A DNA stretch of 26,067 nucleotides from a virus. Under the pieces are notes generated by a model. The model made no database searches, had not been told where the DNA came from, and was given only the letters and a program-made list of their open reading frames with translations. The position numbers and the translations under genes were made by a program. This document shows positions 15,001 through 26,067 of the stretch, piece after piece. The DNA lies in the IMG/VR virus record IMGVR_UViG_3300037584_001644, positions 1 through 26,067 of that record, one strand, 5' to 3'. The number at the start of each line of letters is the position of its first letter. Position 1 is the first letter of the stretch.

Positions 15001-15132
15001 ATGAAAAAAAATAATCAAAAAGAAAAAATAGATATTCAAAGATTTATAAAAGTTATGGAACGCTTTGATAAAGCATCAAAAAAATTAGAACAAAGGATAA
15101 AAAATGCCAACAGGAACATACAAGCTAGATAG
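15001..15132 (+). CDS. 43-residue basic helical protein
   Basis: ATG at 15001 behind AAAGGAAGCGAG; stop at 15130-15132, overlapping the nuclease gene by 29 bases. Lys/Arg-rich (MKKNNQKEKIDIQRFIKVME, KKLEQRIKNANRN), one amphipathic helix expected. The strong ribosome binding site and overlap suggest a real gene coupled to the nuclease; it may assist or inhibit it. No family recognised. Confidence 0.55.
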   Translation: MKKNNQKEKIDIQRFIKVMERFDKASKKLEQRIKNANRNIQAR

Positions 15133-15745
15133 TGGTCAGCTAGTTGTTGGAACGACAACTGTTATTGGTGCATTTAAAAACTCTAGTGCATTAATACATT
15201 GGGCTTGGAACTTAGGTAAAGAGGGAAAAGATTATCGTCAAGAAAGAGACAAAGCTGGTGAGCAAGGAACAAGTGTCCATGACTTAGCAGAAAATTATAT
15301 TCTAGGATTAGATTACGAAATACCTGATGATAAAAAAGTTCAAAAGGCTTTTACTAAATTTACAGAATGGTGGGATAAACAAAGTTATGAAATTGTTTGG
15401 ACAGAAAAACAAATGGTCAGTGAGTCTTATGAGTATGGAGGTTGTCCTGATCTGTTAGTCAAAGATAAAGAGGGTAATCATATTCTCATAGATTTCAAAA
15501 CAGGTAAAAGAATTTACAACGACACGATTATACAACTTGGAGCTTATAGTTGGTTAATACATGAAAATGAAAATATCCAAATTGAAAAAGGAATTATTGT
15601 AAGACTACCAAAAAATAATAGTAAAATTGAATTGAAAGAATTTACAACAGAACAACTAGCACTTGGTTGGGATCAATTCAAATTATTTAGGGAGGCATAC
15701 GACAATAATGCAATCATTGAAAAATGTTTTAGAAAGGACAGTTAA
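15104..15745 (+). CDS. PD-(D/E)XK (RecB/Cas4-like) exonuclease
   Basis: 213 residues. Motif order of the RecB-like nuclease family: GTSVHD (55-60, H59), YGGCPDLLVK (111-120, D116), ILIDFKTGK (127-135; D130-x-K132 catalytic pair), and the closing Q144-x3-Y148 (QLGAYSWLI). All catalytic positions are present. It likely degrades or trims DNA during phage recombination, or host DNA. No annealing protein such as RecT was recognised beside it, but several unknown genes follow in the same operon. The ATG overlaps the upstream 43-residue gene. Confidence 0.85.
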   Translation: MPTGTYKLDSGQLVVGTTTVIGAFKNSSALIHWAWNLGKEGKDYRQERDKAGEQGTSVHDLAENYILGLDYEIPDDKKVQKAFTKFTEWWDKQSYEIVWTEKQMVSESYEYGGCPDLLVKDKEGNHILIDFKTGKRIYNDTIIQLGAYSWLIHENENIQIEKGIIVRLPKNNSKIELKEFTTEQLALGWDQFKLFREAYDNNAIIEKCFRKDS

Positions 15746-20027: not shown

Positions 20028-20542
20028 TATTTCACCTTTGCTGACATATCACTCAATGGATTGTTCAATGCCTTGTTAATTTTTAACTCTATGTTTTCTT
20101 CTAGTAATTTCAACTCATCTAAAAGTTCACGATTATCTTCCTTTTGTCTATCCTCGACATCATTAACTATCTCAGTTATGTGTCGAATGTCAGAGTTCAT
20201 GGATCGTAAATCTTGTTTTAAATCGTTCTTCAATTCTGTGCTTACACCAGCTACAAGCTGTACTTCTTCAAGGATCATAGACATCTCGCCTTTAATCATA
20301 TCTAGTTCTTGTTCGATCAACTGAAGTCTTTTATCCATCTCAGCTTCAGCTAGTTCAATCTTTTTATCAAAACCACTAAGGTCAGGTGCAACAAAGTCTT
20401 GCACTTGCTGTTTCATATCAAGGTAATCGTCATAAAATTTATACCCTGTCCAGCCACCACCTACGATTGTACCTATAAGAGATAGAATGATAATAAATTT
20501 ACCACCTGTAAATTTCATTCCTTGATACTCAATACTGGGCAT
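20027..20542 (-). CDS. Membrane-anchored coiled-coil protein, unknown
   Basis: 171 residues with one N-terminal span (about 15-33, KFIIILSLIGTIVGGGW) and a long charged helix from ~50 to ~160 (heptads such as KKIELAEAEMDKRLQLIEQE). Its start overlaps the preceding gene by 14 bases. Topology matches a spanin-like or structural rod in the periplasm or cytoplasm. Together with the two secreted proteins upstream it forms an envelope module. No family recognised. Confidence 0.65.
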   Translation of the reverse strand: MPSIEYQGMKFTGGKFIIILSLIGTIVGGGWTGYKFYDDYLDMKQQVQDFVAPDLSGFDKKIELAEAEMDKRLQLIEQELDMIKGEMSMILEEVQLVAGVSTELKNDLKQDLRSMNSDIRHITEIVNDVEDRQKEDNRELLDELKLLEENIELKINKALNNPLSDMSAKVK

Positions 20543-22010
20543 TAATCATATCCTCCATAGTTTGTCCTTGTGCTTGTTCGAACAAGACTCCAAACTGATC
20601 TTGTAAGGATTTATCAAGATATTGATTAATATTAGTGTCTTGTATTGTTGCCTGTGCATCAAAGAAACCTTTTGTGTCACCGAGTATTTGCATCACAATC
20701 AATGTTTTGATCTGTGCTGTATCATCGTATCTTTCTTTATCGTCTATTTTCTTTACGATTTTAGTAGCAACCTTTTCTTTTTTAGTAGGTTCTTTGACAG
20801 GTTTTTTGGGTTCTTCCTTTTCAACTTCTTCTTCTTTGCTTTCAGCTTCTACTGGTGCTTCTTCTGTAGTTTCTTCAACAGTTTCAGTTTCTTCAGGCTT
20901 TTCATCAGATGGTTCTTCTGCTTGAGCAACCTCTACTGTTTCTTCTACTTCAGGTTCAGGTAGCTCCATCTCCATTTCAATCTCTAATTCTAATTCTAAT
21001 TCTGTTTCTATCTCAACTGCAACAATCTCAGGTTCAGGTAAATCTATCTCAAAATCTATTTCAAATTCTTGTATCTCTAGCTCTACAGTTTCGTAGGTAA
21101 TTTCTTCTGTTTCAGGCTCTATAGGGGTAAAATTTATCTCGCCATCGTCAAAACTTACATCATTATATTCAAAAACTTCTTCAACAAAATCTAACTCTGT
21201 TGGATCAAATATGTCTAAATAATATATTTCTTCTATTGTTGTGATATGTTGAGTAACTATTGTGTCAATTACATTATAGATTACATTGACTGATACATCG
21301 TCAAACATAACACCAACAGCCATGTTTATATCACGACCACCGACCTCAACTATAACTGATGTTAAACTACCTGAAAAATCAAATCCACCAGTATATTGTT
21401 GGTATTGACTATCTATCCCACTAGCACTTAAAATGTCAGTTCCAGTAAATACATTTGTATTACCATTTCTACCTGTAATGTGCATATAGATAGAGTCTTG
21501 TGCATCAGGCTTAAATACTTTTATTGCGTAATTAGTTTCTCCACCATTAGAGATACTGAGGTCTGATATATCTACTGTGTTTATGAATGTTGTACCCATA
21601 TTGGGAACACCCATAGCAGAGGTAGAATTTCCACTACCAGTAATCATGGCACATTTATCAGTGCCTAGCTGTCCGCAAGTAGATCCTGATGGCATACTAG
21701 CAGAACCTTGTCCACCCCAGTCAATGTCCATGTCACCTTCTTTGTTAGAAGAAACATAGTCATTTGATCCATCAAGAATATCACCTGAGTCATCGTTTGT
21801 AATAGTTGTAGTAGTAGTAGTTACAGTAGTTGTCGTTGTAGTGACTATTTCTGTGCCTTTATCTTCTTCAGTTATTTCAACTTGTGTATCTTCAGTTATG
21901 ATAACACTCGGATCGCAAAGACCTTCGTGGTCAGGTAAACAAGTATTAGCGTAACTAGAGTATGAGAAGCATAGAAAGAGCCATAAGAGCAAAGTTTTTA
22001 ATACTATCAT
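20529..22010 (-). CDS. Large secreted protein with Thr-run and Glu/Pro-rich rod
   Basis: 493 residues. Signal peptide (1-21, cleavage after SSYA expected), a near pure threonine run (57-72), a beta-rich globular domain (about 95-250), an extremely acidic Glu/Pro-rich region (about 270-410), a Lys/Pro turnover (EEPKKPVKEPTKKEKVATK), then a C-terminal helical domain. The order 'secreted globular domain plus Pro/Glu-Lys rod' recalls periplasm-spanning proteins such as TonB, but no TonB domain is seen. Late expression and neighbours point to the host envelope or virion surface. Start has AGGAA four bases upstream and overlaps the 186-residue gene by 56 bases. Confidence 0.7.
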   Translation of the reverse strand: MIVLKTLLLWLFLCFSYSSYANTCLPDHEGLCDPSVIITEDTQVEITEEDKGTEIVTTTTTTVTTTTTTITNDDSGDILDGSNDYVSSNKEGDMDIDWGGQGSASMPSGSTCGQLGTDKCAMITGSGNSTSAMGVPNMGTTFINTVDISDLSISNGGETNYAIKVFKPDAQDSIYMHITGRNGNTNVFTGTDILSASGIDSQYQQYTGGFDFSGSLTSVIVEVGGRDINMAVGVMFDDVSVNVIYNVIDTIVTQHITTIEEIYYLDIFDPTELDFVEEVFEYNDVSFDDGEINFTPIEPETEEITYETVELEIQEFEIDFEIDLPEPEIVAVEIETELELELEIEMEMELPEPEVEETVEVAQAEEPSDEKPEETETVEETTEEAPVEAESKEEEVEKEEPKKPVKEPTKKEKVATKIVKKIDDKERYDDTAQIKTLIVMQILGDTKGFFDAQATIQDTNINQYLDKSLQDQFGVLFEQAQGQTMEDMINAQY

Positions 22011-22515
22011 TGTTTCCTATTGGTTGTTCTCTCGCCTCTATTTGTTGTGTGTATTGTGTTTTGTATTTACTTCCGTCAGGGATTTCAGATATGTTGTTTT
22101 CCCAGTAAGTCATAGCGTCTGAGCCAATACCCTCTCTTGACGGACAAGGTGTCTGAGAGTCCATCATTGAATCAAATACTCTTGGATCTTGACACAGTAA
22201 AGATACAGCCGCAACTTTCATACCATAAGCATAAAGAGATCGACTGAGTTTTAGTTTTTGACATAGCTCATCGTCAATAACTATCCCACTTGCTAGTCCA
22301 ACAATATTATTTTGAACACTTGCTCCAACACCGACTTTACATATATCGGAGTTAGAATTAATTATACTAGGTGCATTAGCGGTAGGAGGTGTTGAATTAG
22401 TTACAACTGTGCTAGAAACTGTATTAGTTTCAGTGTGTGCTTCTGTACAAATCAACATTGTAACTAAAAAAACTACTGCTATTGATGTAAAAAAAGTTAA
22501 ATTGTCCTTTGCCAT
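21955..22515 (-). CDS. Secreted cysteine-containing protein with C-terminal anchor, unknown
   Basis: 186 residues. N-terminal signal or anchor (about 8-24, FFTSIAVVFLVTMLIC), then a Thr/Asn-rich segment, four cysteines in the exported part (DICKVG, DELCQKL, LLCQDPR, TPCPSRE) and a hydrophobic tail (NFALMALSMLLIL) that may be a second anchor. I recall similar 'TVVTNSTPPTANAPS' proteins in marine phages, function unknown. The 3' end overlaps the next gene by 56 bases, unusually long here. Starts in TAATG with the 12-residue microprotein. Confidence 0.65.
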   Translation of the reverse strand: MAKDNLTFFTSIAVVFLVTMLICTEAHTETNTVSSTVVTNSTPPTANAPSIINSNSDICKVGVGASVQNNIVGLASGIVIDDELCQKLKLSRSLYAYGMKVAAVSLLCQDPRVFDSMMDSQTPCPSREGIGSDAMTYWENNISEIPDGSKYKTQYTQQIEAREQPIGNNDSIKNFALMALSMLLIL

Positions 22516-22553
22516 TATTTACAGACACATTCGCCACCGCAATATTCACACAT
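22515..22553 (-). CDS. 12-residue cysteine-rich microprotein
   Basis: ATG at 22551-22553, TGT GAA TAT TGC follow; product MCEYCGGECVCK, four cysteines in a C-x2-C-x3-C-x-C pattern that could hold one metal ion. Its TAA overlaps the ATG of the 186-residue gene (TAATG), the same junction used between confirmed genes in this genome. The ribosome binding site is weak (AGAG). It fills a gap that is otherwise unused. It could instead be a translational coupler only. Confidence 0.4.
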   Translation of the reverse strand: MCEYCGGECVCK

Positions 22554-22556
22554 GAT

Positions 22557-22898
22557 TTAGCTCTTTGGATATTTGTCTTTTGTAGCTTTGATAGTAGTTT
22601 TCCAACCATCAACGCCATTGTGATATATGTCATCTAGCTGATCTGCTATAGATGGATATTCAGCTGCTCTTTTTCTCTGATACTCATTGTTATCGTAAGC
22701 AGTCTGTAACGCAGTTTTCTTGGCTGATACTTCTGCCCATGTAAATAACTGATCTCCAAAGATTGCAGTTCCATTTGAATCTGCTCCAGTTACATATTTT
22801 ACATTAGCTTTGTACTCAGTTTCATTAGTAGGTTCTCCACTAACTACAAACTCTGCATCATCTTTGAGAGCTTTGATTGCACTTGCTATATCTGTCAT
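22557..22898 (-). CDS. Possible tail-fibre accessory protein, conserved
   Basis: 113 residues. The C-terminal pattern YQRKRAAEYPSIADQLDDIY, then HNGVDGWKTTIKATKDKYP, is one I recall in many marine myo- and podophage proteins encoded beside fibre genes. The N-terminus (MTDIASAIKALKDDAEFVVS) is helical and soluble. It follows the fibre paralogues and has its own ribosome binding site (AAAGGAAAATAAA). Assembly chaperone or fibre tip component are both possible. Confidence 0.65.
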   Translation of the reverse strand: MTDIASAIKALKDDAEFVVSGEPTNETEYKANVKYVTGADSNGTAIFGDQLFTWAEVSAKKTALQTAYDNNEYQRKRAAEYPSIADQLDDIYHNGVDGWKTTIKATKDKYPKS

Positions 22899-22914
22899 TT
22901 TATTTTCCTTTCTT

Positions 22915-23493
22915 TTATCCAGCTATTTCCATAGCTTGAAACATTGATATTGCTCCAGCCATATACCCATTACCAGTATTACTTGCTGAGTCATGCCAAC
23001 CATTTATTGTTAAGATTTTTGTTGAGCCAGAGCTATGAGGTATTGCACCTAGAGTATATGTTGTTGCACTTGTAGTAGAGGGAGTGTCAAGAAATTGAAA
23101 TGAGACACCTTCACTATCATAATTCAAATTTTCTGTACCAGCATACCATGTAAAAGGAGGAACATTACCTCCATCTGTATTTTTTGCTATTTGTGTAGTA
23201 CCCCTTCGTAAAACAAAAGGTAAACCATAACCCTCACTTGAATTATGAGCTACTACCCTTCCTAAATTAACAGTCACTAAAATTTTACTTGATGTTGCAC
23301 TTGGAGTTATTGTAACTCCTATATCTCCACTTCCATTATTGATAACAGTTATACCAGCAGATCCTTGAGCTAAAGTTTGTTGAAATCTTGTGGTATAAGT
23401 GCTTTGGACAATTTGCAAAACTTTACCACCAACACCACTAGGCAAAGCACTAATACTACTAATAGAATTATTATTTAATCTTGTAATAGCCAT
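22915..23493 (-). CDS. Fibre-like paralogue 4
   Basis: 192 residues, Ser/Thr/Gly-rich beta protein. Shares with its three upstream neighbours the blocks ITPSATSSKILV (62-73) and FLDTPSTTSATTYTL (134-148). Its end is MEIAG rather than the MEVLA/EVLA of the others, and it lacks the embedded GGAGGT, consistent with being last of the array. Start in TAATG with paralogue 3. Likely receptor-binding or decoration module at the tail; no enzyme motif. Confidence 0.7.
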   Translation of the reverse strand: MAITRLNNNSISSISALPSGVGGKVLQIVQSTYTTRFQQTLAQGSAGITVINNGSGDIGVTITPSATSSKILVTVNLGRVVAHNSSEGYGLPFVLRRGTTQIAKNTDGGNVPPFTWYAGTENLNYDSEGVSFQFLDTPSTTSATTYTLGAIPHSSGSTKILTINGWHDSASNTGNGYMAGAISMFQAMEIAG

Positions 23494-24050
23494 TATGCTA
23501 GTACCTCCATGACTGAAATTGTTGATTGCATTACAGGAACATAGTCAGCATCACCAGTTGAGATAGTTCTATTTATATAAGCTGTTCCACTATAAGAAGC
23601 ACCCAAAGTAAGTTGCATTTTATAAGTTATTTGTGAGGTTGTGCTTGGACTATCTAAAAATTGTCCAGCCATGTTAGCAGTATCAAAATCATATACAGTA
23701 GAATTAGGTCTTGCAGAAGCAGTTGACCTAACTTGATTACCTTGTGCAGCATCTCCTATGCTTATAGCTGTACTATCTCTCATTAATCTTATGTGTCTTG
23801 TTCCTGAAGTAGCACTTGCATTAACAACATAAAAAATAAAAATTTTACTTGATGTTGATGTTGGTGTTATATTTACACTCAAACCTGAAATATCAACAAA
23901 GTTAGAGGTTGAAGAACTAGAAATTGAAACTGTACTGCTCAATGTGGTGCTTACTATTTGACCAACTGTACCACCGATACCTAAACCACTAGCTGTAGCA
24001 GATCCCCCTGATGATGTTTGAATACTATCTACTCTTAATATTGATGTCAT
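23493..24050 (-). CDS. Fibre-like paralogue 3
   Basis: 185 residues. Blocks: LRVDSIQTSSGG start, VGQIVSTTL (29-37), ITPTSTSSKIFI (61-72), LMRDSTAI (89-96), FLDSPSTTSQITYKM (131-145), end VMEVLA. The segment between the last two blocks differs from the neighbours. ATGA overlap with paralogue 2 upstream, and GGAGGT in its last codons serves the next gene. Confidence 0.7.
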   Translation of the reverse strand: MTSILRVDSIQTSSGGSATASGLGIGGTVGQIVSTTLSSTVSISSSSTSNFVDISGLSVNITPTSTSSKIFIFYVVNASATSGTRHIRLMRDSTAISIGDAAQGNQVRSTASARPNSTVYDFDTANMAGQFLDSPSTTSQITYKMQLTLGASYSGTAYINRTISTGDADYVPVMQSTISVMEVLA

Positions 24051-24568
24051 GCTAATACCTCCATTAGTGTAAGTGTTGATGTTGATGAAGCATGAGATGT
24101 TGCATTATCATTTGGTATATTTATATAAAATGTTCTTCCATCATACCCACCACAGTTTACAGTGTACGCTTGTTGGCTAGTGCTGTTTGGACTATCTAAA
24201 AATTGTTGTGTGTGAACCCCACTAAATTGTATTGAAGCATTATCACTAAAACCATTATAACTTGAAGTAGATCTTTGCCTACTACCTATTGCATCTGCTC
24301 TAAAAATATCAGATCCATTTCTTCTAATTGTGCTATATGGAAATGCTTGACTTGCTTGTTGTCCTACATGAAGTACATAAGAAACTAAAATTTTAGATGA
24401 TGTGGCAGTTGGTGTTATATTTGCTGTTAATAATGTTGTCAAAGATCCTGTAGATACTGCTAGTGTTGAACTATCAGTCTTTGTGACTTGTACTACTTGA
24501 CCAACCTTACCTACAGGAAATGTAGATCCGTCTAGCTTTTGTAGATTTGTAACTTTTAATGTACTCAT
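24047..24568 (-). CDS. Fibre-like paralogue 2
   Basis: 173 residues. Start LKVTNLQKLDGSTFPVGK is nearly the same as paralogue 1; blocks VGQVVQVTKT (22-31), ITPTATSSKILV (51-62), FLDSPNSTSQQAYTV (123-137), end LMEVLA. ATGA overlaps at both ends. Central and pre-C-terminal segments are unrelated to the other copies at first sight. Confidence 0.7.
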   Translation of the reverse strand: MSTLKVTNLQKLDGSTFPVGKVGQVVQVTKTDSSTLAVSTGSLTTLLTANITPTATSSKILVSYVLHVGQQASQAFPYSTIRRNGSDIFRADAIGSRQRSTSSYNGFSDNASIQFSGVHTQQFLDSPNSTSQQAYTVNCGGYDGRTFYINIPNDNATSHASSTSTLTLMEVLA

Positions 24569-25065
24569 GCTAGTACCTCCGTAGCCATTAAAGATGTAGG
24601 AAATCTATAATGATCTGCATTACCTTTTCTTCCAATAAATCCAGTGGAAGCATTTACTCTACATTGTATCTTATAAGTTATCTGTGATGTTGTACTAGGT
24701 TCGTCCATAAAATTCATAGATAAATTTACTAATTCATAAGAACCTGATACTGATGCAATACCAAATCCATCGTATACACCACCACCTGAACCTGATCCTA
24801 CTTCTGTACTATCTCTGAGTAACCTAGTAACAATAATATCTGTACCACCTGAATTAGATCCAAATGCTCTAAAGTCTATTAAAATTTTAGAACTTGAAGC
24901 GGTTGGTGTTATATTTAAAGTTGCACCAGTTAAGTCTACAAAAGATCCTGTGCTTGTTGTTGAAAAAGTATCTGTTTTTCTAGCAGTAACTATTTGACCT
25001 AATTTACCTATAGGGAATGTACTCCCATCTCTTTTTTGTAGTGTATCTACTTGTATAATACTCAA
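24565..25065 (-). CDS. Fibre-like paralogue 1
   Basis: 166 residues starting at TTG (25063-25065) behind AGGAG. Blocks: VDTLQKRDGSTFPIGK, LGQIVTARKT (22-31), ITPTASSSKILI (52-63), LLRDSTEV (82-89), FMDEPSTTSQITYKI (119-133), end ATEVLA. First of the four copies. The TTG start, unlike the ATG of the others, may set a lower level for this copy. Confidence 0.7.
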   Translation of the reverse strand: MSIIQVDTLQKRDGSTFPIGKLGQIVTARKTDTFSTTSTGSFVDLTGATLNITPTASSSKILIDFRAFGSNSGGTDIIVTRLLRDSTEVGSGSGGGVYDGFGIASVSGSYELVNLSMNFMDEPSTTSQITYKIQCRVNASTGFIGRKGNADHYRFPTSLMATEVLA

Positions 25066-25074
25066 TTTTTACTC

Positions 25075-25527
25075 CTATATAATTACAAACGCAGATCCAC
25101 TTGGAATTGTGAGCGTTCCTGAAATTGTTATCGTGCCAACTGCCATAGCATTTTTGCCTGAAGCAATAGACACATTGTTAAATGTCTGTCCGTTAGTCAT
25201 AAAGAATGTAGAGGATAGACTTGATGATGATACTGTTCCATCTGTTGGACTACCGATATCTCTGCTATCTCCTAAGACTCTACCACTAAAGTTATCTGAA
25301 GATGCTGGTGCAGAACTAAATGTTATCTGTGATCCACTAATCGTGTAAGCAGAAGTGTATTGCACGACACCTGAGATAGATATTAAGGCATTTGCATCTG
25401 TCTGAGGTACGACAGTAGTTCCACCTGATGTTAGATTGAAGGTTGTTGTTGATCCATTAAAGCTAGAGGATATATCGTCTAGTTCAATATAGTTGCCAAT
25501 AGTTGGACTTTTACCTATGTAAGCCAT
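25075..25527 (-). CDS. Fibre-like protein of the MAYIGKSP family
   Basis: 150 residues, starting MAYIGKSPTIGNYIELDDIS, a start I recall from many marine phage fibre or fibre-adaptor proteins. Ser/Thr-rich beta pattern (NLTSGGTTVV, QITFSSAPASSDNFSGR) and a hydrophobic strand end (TIPSGSAFVII). Not obviously homologous to the four paralogues downstream. Its ATG lies one base after the stop of the LamG-type gene. Confidence 0.75.
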   Translation of the reverse strand: MAYIGKSPTIGNYIELDDISSSFNGSTTTFNLTSGGTTVVPQTDANALISISGVVQYTSAYTISGSQITFSSAPASSDNFSGRVLGDSRDIGSPTDGTVSSSSLSSTFFMTNGQTFNNVSIASGKNAMAVGTITISGTLTIPSGSAFVII

Positions 25528-25528
25528 A

Positions 25529-26067
25529 TTAATATAATAATCCTACTCCCTGTATTTTTGTTTCCTTAGAATTAAAACTCTGATTTGCAAAAGACATTTT
25601 ATATTTAACTTGTGTTCCAGCAGTCACAGAAACACCTACCGCCCTTGCAATTTTTATACTTGCAGAGAAGTTGCCTATATCCTCCAATGTACAAGTAGAA
25701 AAATTACTACCATTGTCAGCAGACACCTGAGCAACTATATCAGTATTTAATGTTGCAGTGCCAACTGTATTTTCATATAGAATAATCATACCCATTTTTG
25801 AAATTGTTTCTGCGGCAGTTTGTGTAGTAGAAATGTAATTACCAGTAGCATTGACAACTGGAGATGTATCAATAAGTGTAGTAGATCCACTAGATTGATT
25901 TTGTGATTGTAATAAAAATTTTGTATTTGCATCAGCAGTAACCCTAGAAGTAGGTACTGTATAAGATGAACTTGTGTATCTTGCACCACTTGAAATTCTT
26001 ATGTCGTCCCATGCACCATCACCACCATTAGCTACTTGATTGTGTCCATAACCCCAATATAAATATC
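25529..26067 (-). CDS. LamG-type fibre / receptor-binding protein, 5' end beyond window
   Basis: 178 residues to the stop, open through the right edge. The first visible segment (YLYWGYGHNQVANGGDGAWD, then DIRISSGARYTSSSYTVP) has the closing signature of a concanavalin/LamG-like lectin domain (W-D-D-I-R-I-S-x-GARYT-x-YTVP). The C-terminal ~110 residues are beta-rich with TLNTDIVAQVSADNG. It probably binds a host surface glycan. A start at 25795 (MGMIIL) is only an internal methionine because the frame continues upstream with good sequence. Confidence 0.75.
   Translation of the reverse strand, partial: YLYWGYGHNQVANGGDGAWDDIRISSGARYTSSSYTVPTSRVTADANTKFLLQSQNQSSGSTTLIDTSPVVNATGNYISTTQTAAETISKMGMIILYENTVGTATLNTDIVAQVSADNGSNFSTCTLEDIGNFSASIKIARAVGVSVTAGTQVKYKMSFANQSFNSKETKIQGVGLLY

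Follow-up and report, generated by a model that had tools for sequence, protein, structure and literature searches.

Four tandem candidate adhesin genes in a marine phage combine position-specific tags, exchangeable heads and Shine–Dalgarno sites encoded in the head ends

Why should a phage keep four small and similar fibre-like genes side by side? The locus that raises this question lies in a 26,067-nucleotide stretch of DNA (the window), a 26-kb virus contig from a marine phage with SU10-type portal and adaptor proteins. Among phage records its portal is nearest to those of Pelagibacter phage HTVC106P and OM43 phage Venkman (43% each), and across the flanking gene C1 the nearest isolate is Pelagibacter phage Lederberg (59%). 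The initial annotation offered two possibilities, that the four products form mixed fibres, or that the array is a reservoir from which recombination at conserved blocks swaps binding segments. We refer to the genes as G1 to G4, occupying slots 1 to 4 between the flanking genes C1 and D (Table 1).

Table 1. Array genes, junctions and other features of the window
Feature	Coordinates	Strand	Description
C0	25529-26065	(-)	ORF upstream of C1, truncated by the contig end; without family match
C1, conserved upstream flank	25075-25527	(-)	Fibre-type N-terminal domain, phrog_18673, E 1.1e-43
G1, slot 1	24565-25065	(-)	166 aa, TTG start; tag LSIIQVDTLQKRDGSTFPIGK and type i head
G1/G2 junction	24565-24582	(-)	ATGGAGGTACTAGCATGA-type end, ACG GAG GTA CTA GCA TGA; GGAGG 7 nt before G2 ATG; ATGA overlap
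G2, slot 2	24047-24568	(-)	173 aa; tag MSTLKVTNLQKLDGSTFPVGK and type i head
G2/G3 junction	24047-24064	(-)	ATGGAGGTATTAGCATGA; GGAGG 7 nt before G3 ATG
G3, slot 3	23493-24050	(-)	185 aa; tag MTSILRVDSIQTSSGGSATASGLGIGG and type i head
G3/G4 junction	23493-23510	(-)	ATGGAGGTACTAGCATAATG; GGAGG 10 nt before G4 ATG
G4, slot 4	22915-23493	(-)	192 aa; tag MAITRLNNNSISSISALPSGVGG and type i head
D, conserved downstream flank	22557-22898	(-)	phrog_9114
Exonuclease	15104-15745	(+)	phrog_298, PD-(D/E)XK

Four paralogues and the predicted fold of their heads

Four fibre-like paralogues had been proposed at 22915-25065, and open reading frames were found exactly there, all on one strand and with neighbours overlapping by 1–4 nt. 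Mutual blastp E-values of G1–G4 range from 1.8e-22 to 1.3e-07, as expected for paralogues, and all four were matched by a head profile from which the window had been left out (E 1.7e-45 to 7.6e-29), with no match among 1000 shuffled sequences. The ordered blocks that had been noticed hold up in an alignment, in which G23, Q27/V29, ITP, SSKI, F-D-P..TS and a C-terminal E are invariant in G1–G4. The segments between these blocks had been taken to be unrelated; in fact they are parts of a single domain, homologous between the genes though highly divergent. G1 (E 8.2e-11), G3 (1.2e-17) and G4 (1.9e-12) match the tail-fibre C-terminal part of phrog_6942 (about residues 530–707 of 708), and G2 instead matches the C-terminus of phrog_29834. 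By sequence, the array belongs with the PHROG 6942 tail-fibre C-terminal domain; a Pfam search of G1–G4 returned no family.

Fold models, all of single chains, were made for two heads, that of G3 and that in slot 3 of L092 (labels of this form denote contigs or loci compared with the window); YGIK-type and glycine-rich heads also occur. In the G3 model (pLDDT 89), residues 28–184 form a TNF-like jelly roll, and the tag residues have moderate confidence only. The G3 head resembles the TNF-like lectin PLTL (9ib7; Z 14.3, rmsd 2.0 over 124 residues) and the N-domain of BC2L-C (2wq4; Z 13.9), and the best Foldseek match of G3 is the C-terminal domain of Pgp3. The L092 head, which belongs to a second clade (clade B), was modelled as a C1q domain (pLDDT 81), with a Foldseek match to C1QL3 at 6e-9 and a VIA Z of 16.8 to the C1q domain of Caprin-2; because the Pfam C1q matches of clade B heads fall below the curated cut-off, their C1q assignment relies on the fold search and a PDB profile match. 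Unrelated folds, which would have spoken against a diversifying family, were therefore not what we found: both modelled head types are predicted TNF/C1q-like jelly rolls. The heads of G1, G2 and G4 would share this fold by homology.

Type i heads also match residues 493–657 of a solved 658-aa protein (orf22, PDB 9efk; E 4.7e-35), whose last 165 residues belong to the type i head family. This structure was deposited with 18 chains, a number that would fit six trimers, and it could reveal how such a head is seated on a fibre.

TNF/C1q-like folds occur in non-phage surface proteins too, and the same cassettes might serve as capsid or tail decorations, or as secreted or superinfection-related surface proteins, rather than as fibre tips. 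We consider this unlikely. The placement of the products in a fibre does rest on sequence and genomic context, and a literature search found no usable virion proteomics for P-SSP7 or pelagiphages and no structure of these products. Against a non-fibre role stand the homology to annotated tail-fibre C-termini (phrog_6942) and to the 658-aa, 18-chain solved protein, the position of the array beside a fibre-type gene (in Lederberg it follows a putative tail fibre gene and C1q genes), and a hypervariability that fits host recognition (PMC3909814).

Tags and heads in related phages

Relatives were gathered from IMG/VR through C1, a route blind to the copy number of the array, and separately through D. 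In the window and in the 21 further contigs whose C1–D region is complete, there are four same-strand genes with their tags in a fixed order. D was in some cases identified by its sequence and not through the blastp cut-off, and near-duplicates occur among these contigs. The cultured Pelagibacter phages Lederberg (Lederberg_1, 71, 70 and 69) and HTVC115P (gp59–gp56) also carry four slot genes, both with the four-tag layout of the contigs and with different heads, and P-SSP7 has four small fibre-annotated genes after gp17. One or two fibre genes had been taken as the norm for phages, which is not the case in this group. Variable copy number, which had been put forward as a sign of a diversification array, was not observed either: the number is fixed at four in close relatives with the single exception of L085, which has an extra, fifth head-like ORF. 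This ORF (L085:2658-3269) follows the fourth slot, has a tag beginning MSKTTVAS and a YGVKKT end, and makes L085 the sole array with more than four among close relatives. Among more distant relatives, L013 and L193 have additional small ORFs and L196 has three heads.

We compared tags and heads by position, permuting slots within genomes. Tag identity is about 80% within a position and 32–34% between positions. In the six complete arrays of clade A, to which the window belongs, identity over the first 22 residues was 80% in the same slot versus 32% between slots (p = 0.0002), and the corresponding values for heads were 37.5% and 36.6% (p = 0.15). In clade B the permutation p value was 0.0002 for tags and 0.0016 for heads, the head effect amounting to just 1.4 points. 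The flanks contrast with the heads, with identities among relatives of 79–91% for C1 and up to 96% for D versus 30–45% for heads. In the tag codons of slots 1–2 (clade A) and 2–3 (clade B), synonymous changes exceed non-synonymous ones, a pattern that conservation of the peptide itself would produce. No such excess was seen in the tags of slots 3–4 (clade A) or of slots 1 and 4 (clade B). Tags vary more in clade A slot 4 and in clade B slots 1 and 4 than elsewhere. The presence of four distinct tags argues against random mixing of fibres.

Exchange of heads between genomes was evident. Among 354 head domains from 247 loci, 120 between-locus pairs were at least 70% identical, and in 36 of the 120 the accompanying tags were less than 50% identical. 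For 16 head pairs of at least 85% identity, nucleotide identity was 91–100% inside the head and mostly 47–62% outside it. The median breakpoints lie 6 nt into the head, which starts at the GK[IV]xQV motif, and 3 nt past the stop. L012, for example, carries in slot 1 the head that L014 and L102 carry in slot 2. An exact 87-nt match between G4 of the window and L002 covers the tag and is followed in L002 by a different head type (C1q-type by a weak Pfam match alone, under the curated cut-off); from the G4 stop codon onward the two are again mostly 97–100% identical. Arrays that are otherwise near-identical can differ by one replaced head; L098 and L103 agree in slots 1–3 and differ in slot 4. 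Single heads are also shared in a checkerboard pattern (L084/L095 in slot 2 only, L091/L084 in slot 1 only, L092/L095 in slot 4 only), in a comparison where gap removal inflates head DNA identity so that unrelated heads usually score 72–78%. The block-wise swapping that the initial annotation had anticipated is thus visible in the DNA, as replacements of single heads with breakpoints at head start and stop. Its opposite, fixed one-to-one orthologues without exchange, is borne out for the tags, which are orthologous slot by slot, and fails for the heads, which have been extensively exchanged.

Plain vertical descent of the paralogues, with rapid divergence under host pressure and no exchange of heads, would explain why some heads are co-inherited, as in slots 1–3 of L098 and L103, and why clade B heads keep a slight positional signal. 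We give this explanation very little credence. It does not accommodate head DNA that is 91–100% identical behind unrelated tags and ends at sharp breakpoints, nor the checkerboard sharing of single heads, and it is contradicted by the swap data unless all of those contigs are chimeric.

Chimeric metagenome assembly deserves attention in its own right, since the conserved blocks are natural misassembly points and every near-identical swap comes from IMG/VR contigs. When isolates were searched by tblastn with P-SSP7 heads, all matches outside P-SSP7 were below 60%, many of them beginning at the head boundary; the near-identical swaps thus rest on metagenomic contigs. Most swapped copies, however, differ by 1–9% of their nucleotides and come from several different metagenomes, which makes chimeric assembly unlikely as a general cause. 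The head common to L012, L014 and L102 recurs in more than one contig and in two slots. In the isolates the same arrangement of four tags carries different heads, and isolate matches often start at the head boundary. That the swaps are assembly artefacts is, in our judgement, highly improbable.

A further explanation, suggested by the tandem paralogues and their common conserved blocks, is that the array serves as an internal reservoir from which a single expressed adhesin is diversified, through intragenomic recombination, a diversity-generating retroelement (DGR) or an invertible segment. Across 171 within-genome pairs, head identity reaches 51% at most, which places recent exchange between genomes and not inside the array; the intragenomic part of the earlier proposal is not upheld. 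Moreover, each of the four slots has a start codon, an in-frame ORF and a coupled ribosome-binding site and so looks expressed, which counts against a reservoir. No reverse transcriptase or invertase was found among the scanned proteins (the contig is incomplete, and a distant reverse transcriptase is possible), nor was a template-like copy seen in the contig or a long inverted repeat in 22000-26067. We regard an internal reservoir as scarcely credible, and favour exchange of heads between genomes.

Neither specialised mechanism is supported by what this incomplete contig holds. A DGR makes point changes in its target, whereas here entire heads are exchanged at sharp breakpoints. As to an invertible fibre segment, the sole inverted repeat in 22000-26067 is weak (26 nt, 77%) and no invertase was found, the lone invertase-family match being the helix-turn-helix part of the terminase small subunit.

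Two kinds of gene outside the four slots also involve these heads. ORFs of about 92–100 aa lie directly after LGDT-ending heads (L003:605-904, L004:1266-1544, L013:1567-1860 and L193:7696-7998), and mostly have EIKEAFGI-like ends; they may encode a cognate chaperone that moves with that head type. Elsewhere (L003:1374-2180, L004:2095-2913 and Lederberg_5, L257:1439-2227) a type i head is fused to a larger C1-like N-terminal domain, which indicates that the head pool is common to longer fibre-like proteins.

Shine–Dalgarno sites in the C-terminal codons

The codons of the C-terminal MEVLA peptide, ATG GAG GTA CTA GCA TGA, contain GGAGGT, and GGAGG ends 7–10 nt before the next start. We counted codons in 369 head genes, taking the next start as abutting when it lay within −5 to +11 nt. 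The Glu of the MEV motif was GAG in 229/246 genes (93%) whose next start abuts, as against 57% of those without one (41/72; Fisher 7e-12) and a GAG frequency of 17% elsewhere in the same genes (175/1034; Fisher 4e-117).

The site is found well beyond MEVLA itself. At junctions 1-2, 2-3 and 3-4 of clade A, GGAGGT or GGAG was present in 18/18 cases. At junctions 2-3 and 3-4 of clade B, AGGAG was present in 26/26, encoded by other peptides, LIGA and LGDT; at the 1-2 junction of this clade the Shine–Dalgarno site is weak or absent. HTVC115P likewise encodes GGAG, through IGA and LGD, and the C-terminal peptides of C1q-type heads differ from MEVLA yet also spell GGAG. Slot-4 ends are without GGAG, as at the end of G4 in the window, and D has its own Shine–Dalgarno-like sequence upstream. 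We conclude that the MEVLA motif is conserved at least partly as an RNA signal, and the head appears to move together with the ribosome-binding site that it supplies for the next gene.

The start of slot 1 itself differs between relatives. It is TTG in the window (25065), L006, L060 and L102, with a gap of about 9 nt between C1 and slot 1, and ATG in L007, L012 and L014, where C1 and slot 1 overlap; possibly this difference reflects a tuned start.

A modular reading of the array and its relation to known systems

We think it likely that the array is a four-slot adhesin module in which each gene joins a docking tag to a swappable head and an end with an embedded Shine–Dalgarno site. This reading builds on direct observation of the four slots, their specific tags, the exchange of heads with its breakpoints and the Shine–Dalgarno bias, and on the predicted fold of two head types. 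Counting against it are the slight positional signal of clade B heads, the weak or absent site at the clade B 1-2 junction, the 57% use of GAG where no start abuts, the more variable tags in some slots, the moderate confidence of the modelled tag residues and the origin of the near-identical swaps in metagenomic contigs. The tag, 20–30 N-terminal residues specific to the slot, would probably dock the protein at one site on the tail or fibre. The head, of about 130 residues in a TNF/C1q-like jelly roll, is probably trimeric and would bind a receptor or glycan. The C-terminal peptide (MEVLA, or LIGA, IGA, LGD or LGDT in other head types) would code the Shine–Dalgarno site of the next gene, the next slot starting at an ATGA or TAATG overlap or a few bases away. 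Heads would be replaced singly, by homologous recombination with co-infecting phages at the tag–head and stop/start junctions, and a swap would spare the tags, the reading frames and the translation of the next slot because head and ribosome-binding site move as a unit between two fixed junctions. The exonuclease of the window is a candidate that could assist phage recombination. On a wider scale, we lean towards the view that several marine phage lineages draw on a common pool of plug-in adhesins, in which tags stay in place, at least four head types move freely and different C-terminal peptides have converged on GGAG.

Hypervariable host-recognition islands that include C1q and fibre genes are known from pelagiphages (PMC3909814, PMC10504331). 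In the parts of these papers available to us, such metaviromic islands resemble the array in their place and kinds of gene (tail fibre, C1q-like, XkdW-like and lectin-like) and in holding the same genes, widely diverged in sequence, between flanks that are conserved; they differ in being described as regions and as variability within genes. Hypervariable genes between conserved flanks were recognised here by contig comparison, not read recruitment. The array also resembles the branched tail-spike complex of Ackermannviridae, described in the available part of PMC11414711 as side-by-side adhesins (TSP1–4) with conserved N-terminal domains and exchangeable receptor-binding parts, in that it has tandem adhesin-like genes, position-specific N-termini and exchangeable C-terminal parts. 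The anchors there are tail-spike N-terminal domains, whereas here they are 20–30-residue tags on heads of about 130 residues. PSSP7_037-039 and 041 of P-SSP7 (PHROG 6942), which follow gp17 as a tandem run, have heads homologous to those of the array, but their tags are different and a D-like gene lies inside the run. Trimeric TNF-like lectins (PLTL, the N-domain of BC2L-C) and C1q globular heads are alike in predicted fold, with only 14–20% sequence identity, and binding by the array heads is putative.

Hypervariable fibre islands of marine phages are thus already known, and the tag-plus-head layout is new relative to the accessible portions of that literature; in the open-access text available to us, we found no description of four tag-defined slots, of slot-to-slot head exchange with these breakpoints or of the embedded Shine–Dalgarno site. 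The layout gives a concrete anatomy to the host-recognition islands of ocean phages, with a fixed tag, a moving head, cut sites and translatability after a swap, and would explain how a binding target can change without rebuilding of the tail. Heads could be catalogued apart from phage lineages, which would make prediction of host range from metagenomes more realistic, and a natural design is suggested in which four different adhesins are carried together, each exchangeable alone.

Two further proteins are encoded after D in the window. One, at 20529-22010, is an acidic E/P/T-rich protein of 493 aa with a signal-like N-terminus and without family; the other, at 21955-22515, is a 186-aa protein that is 52% conserved in HTVC115P.
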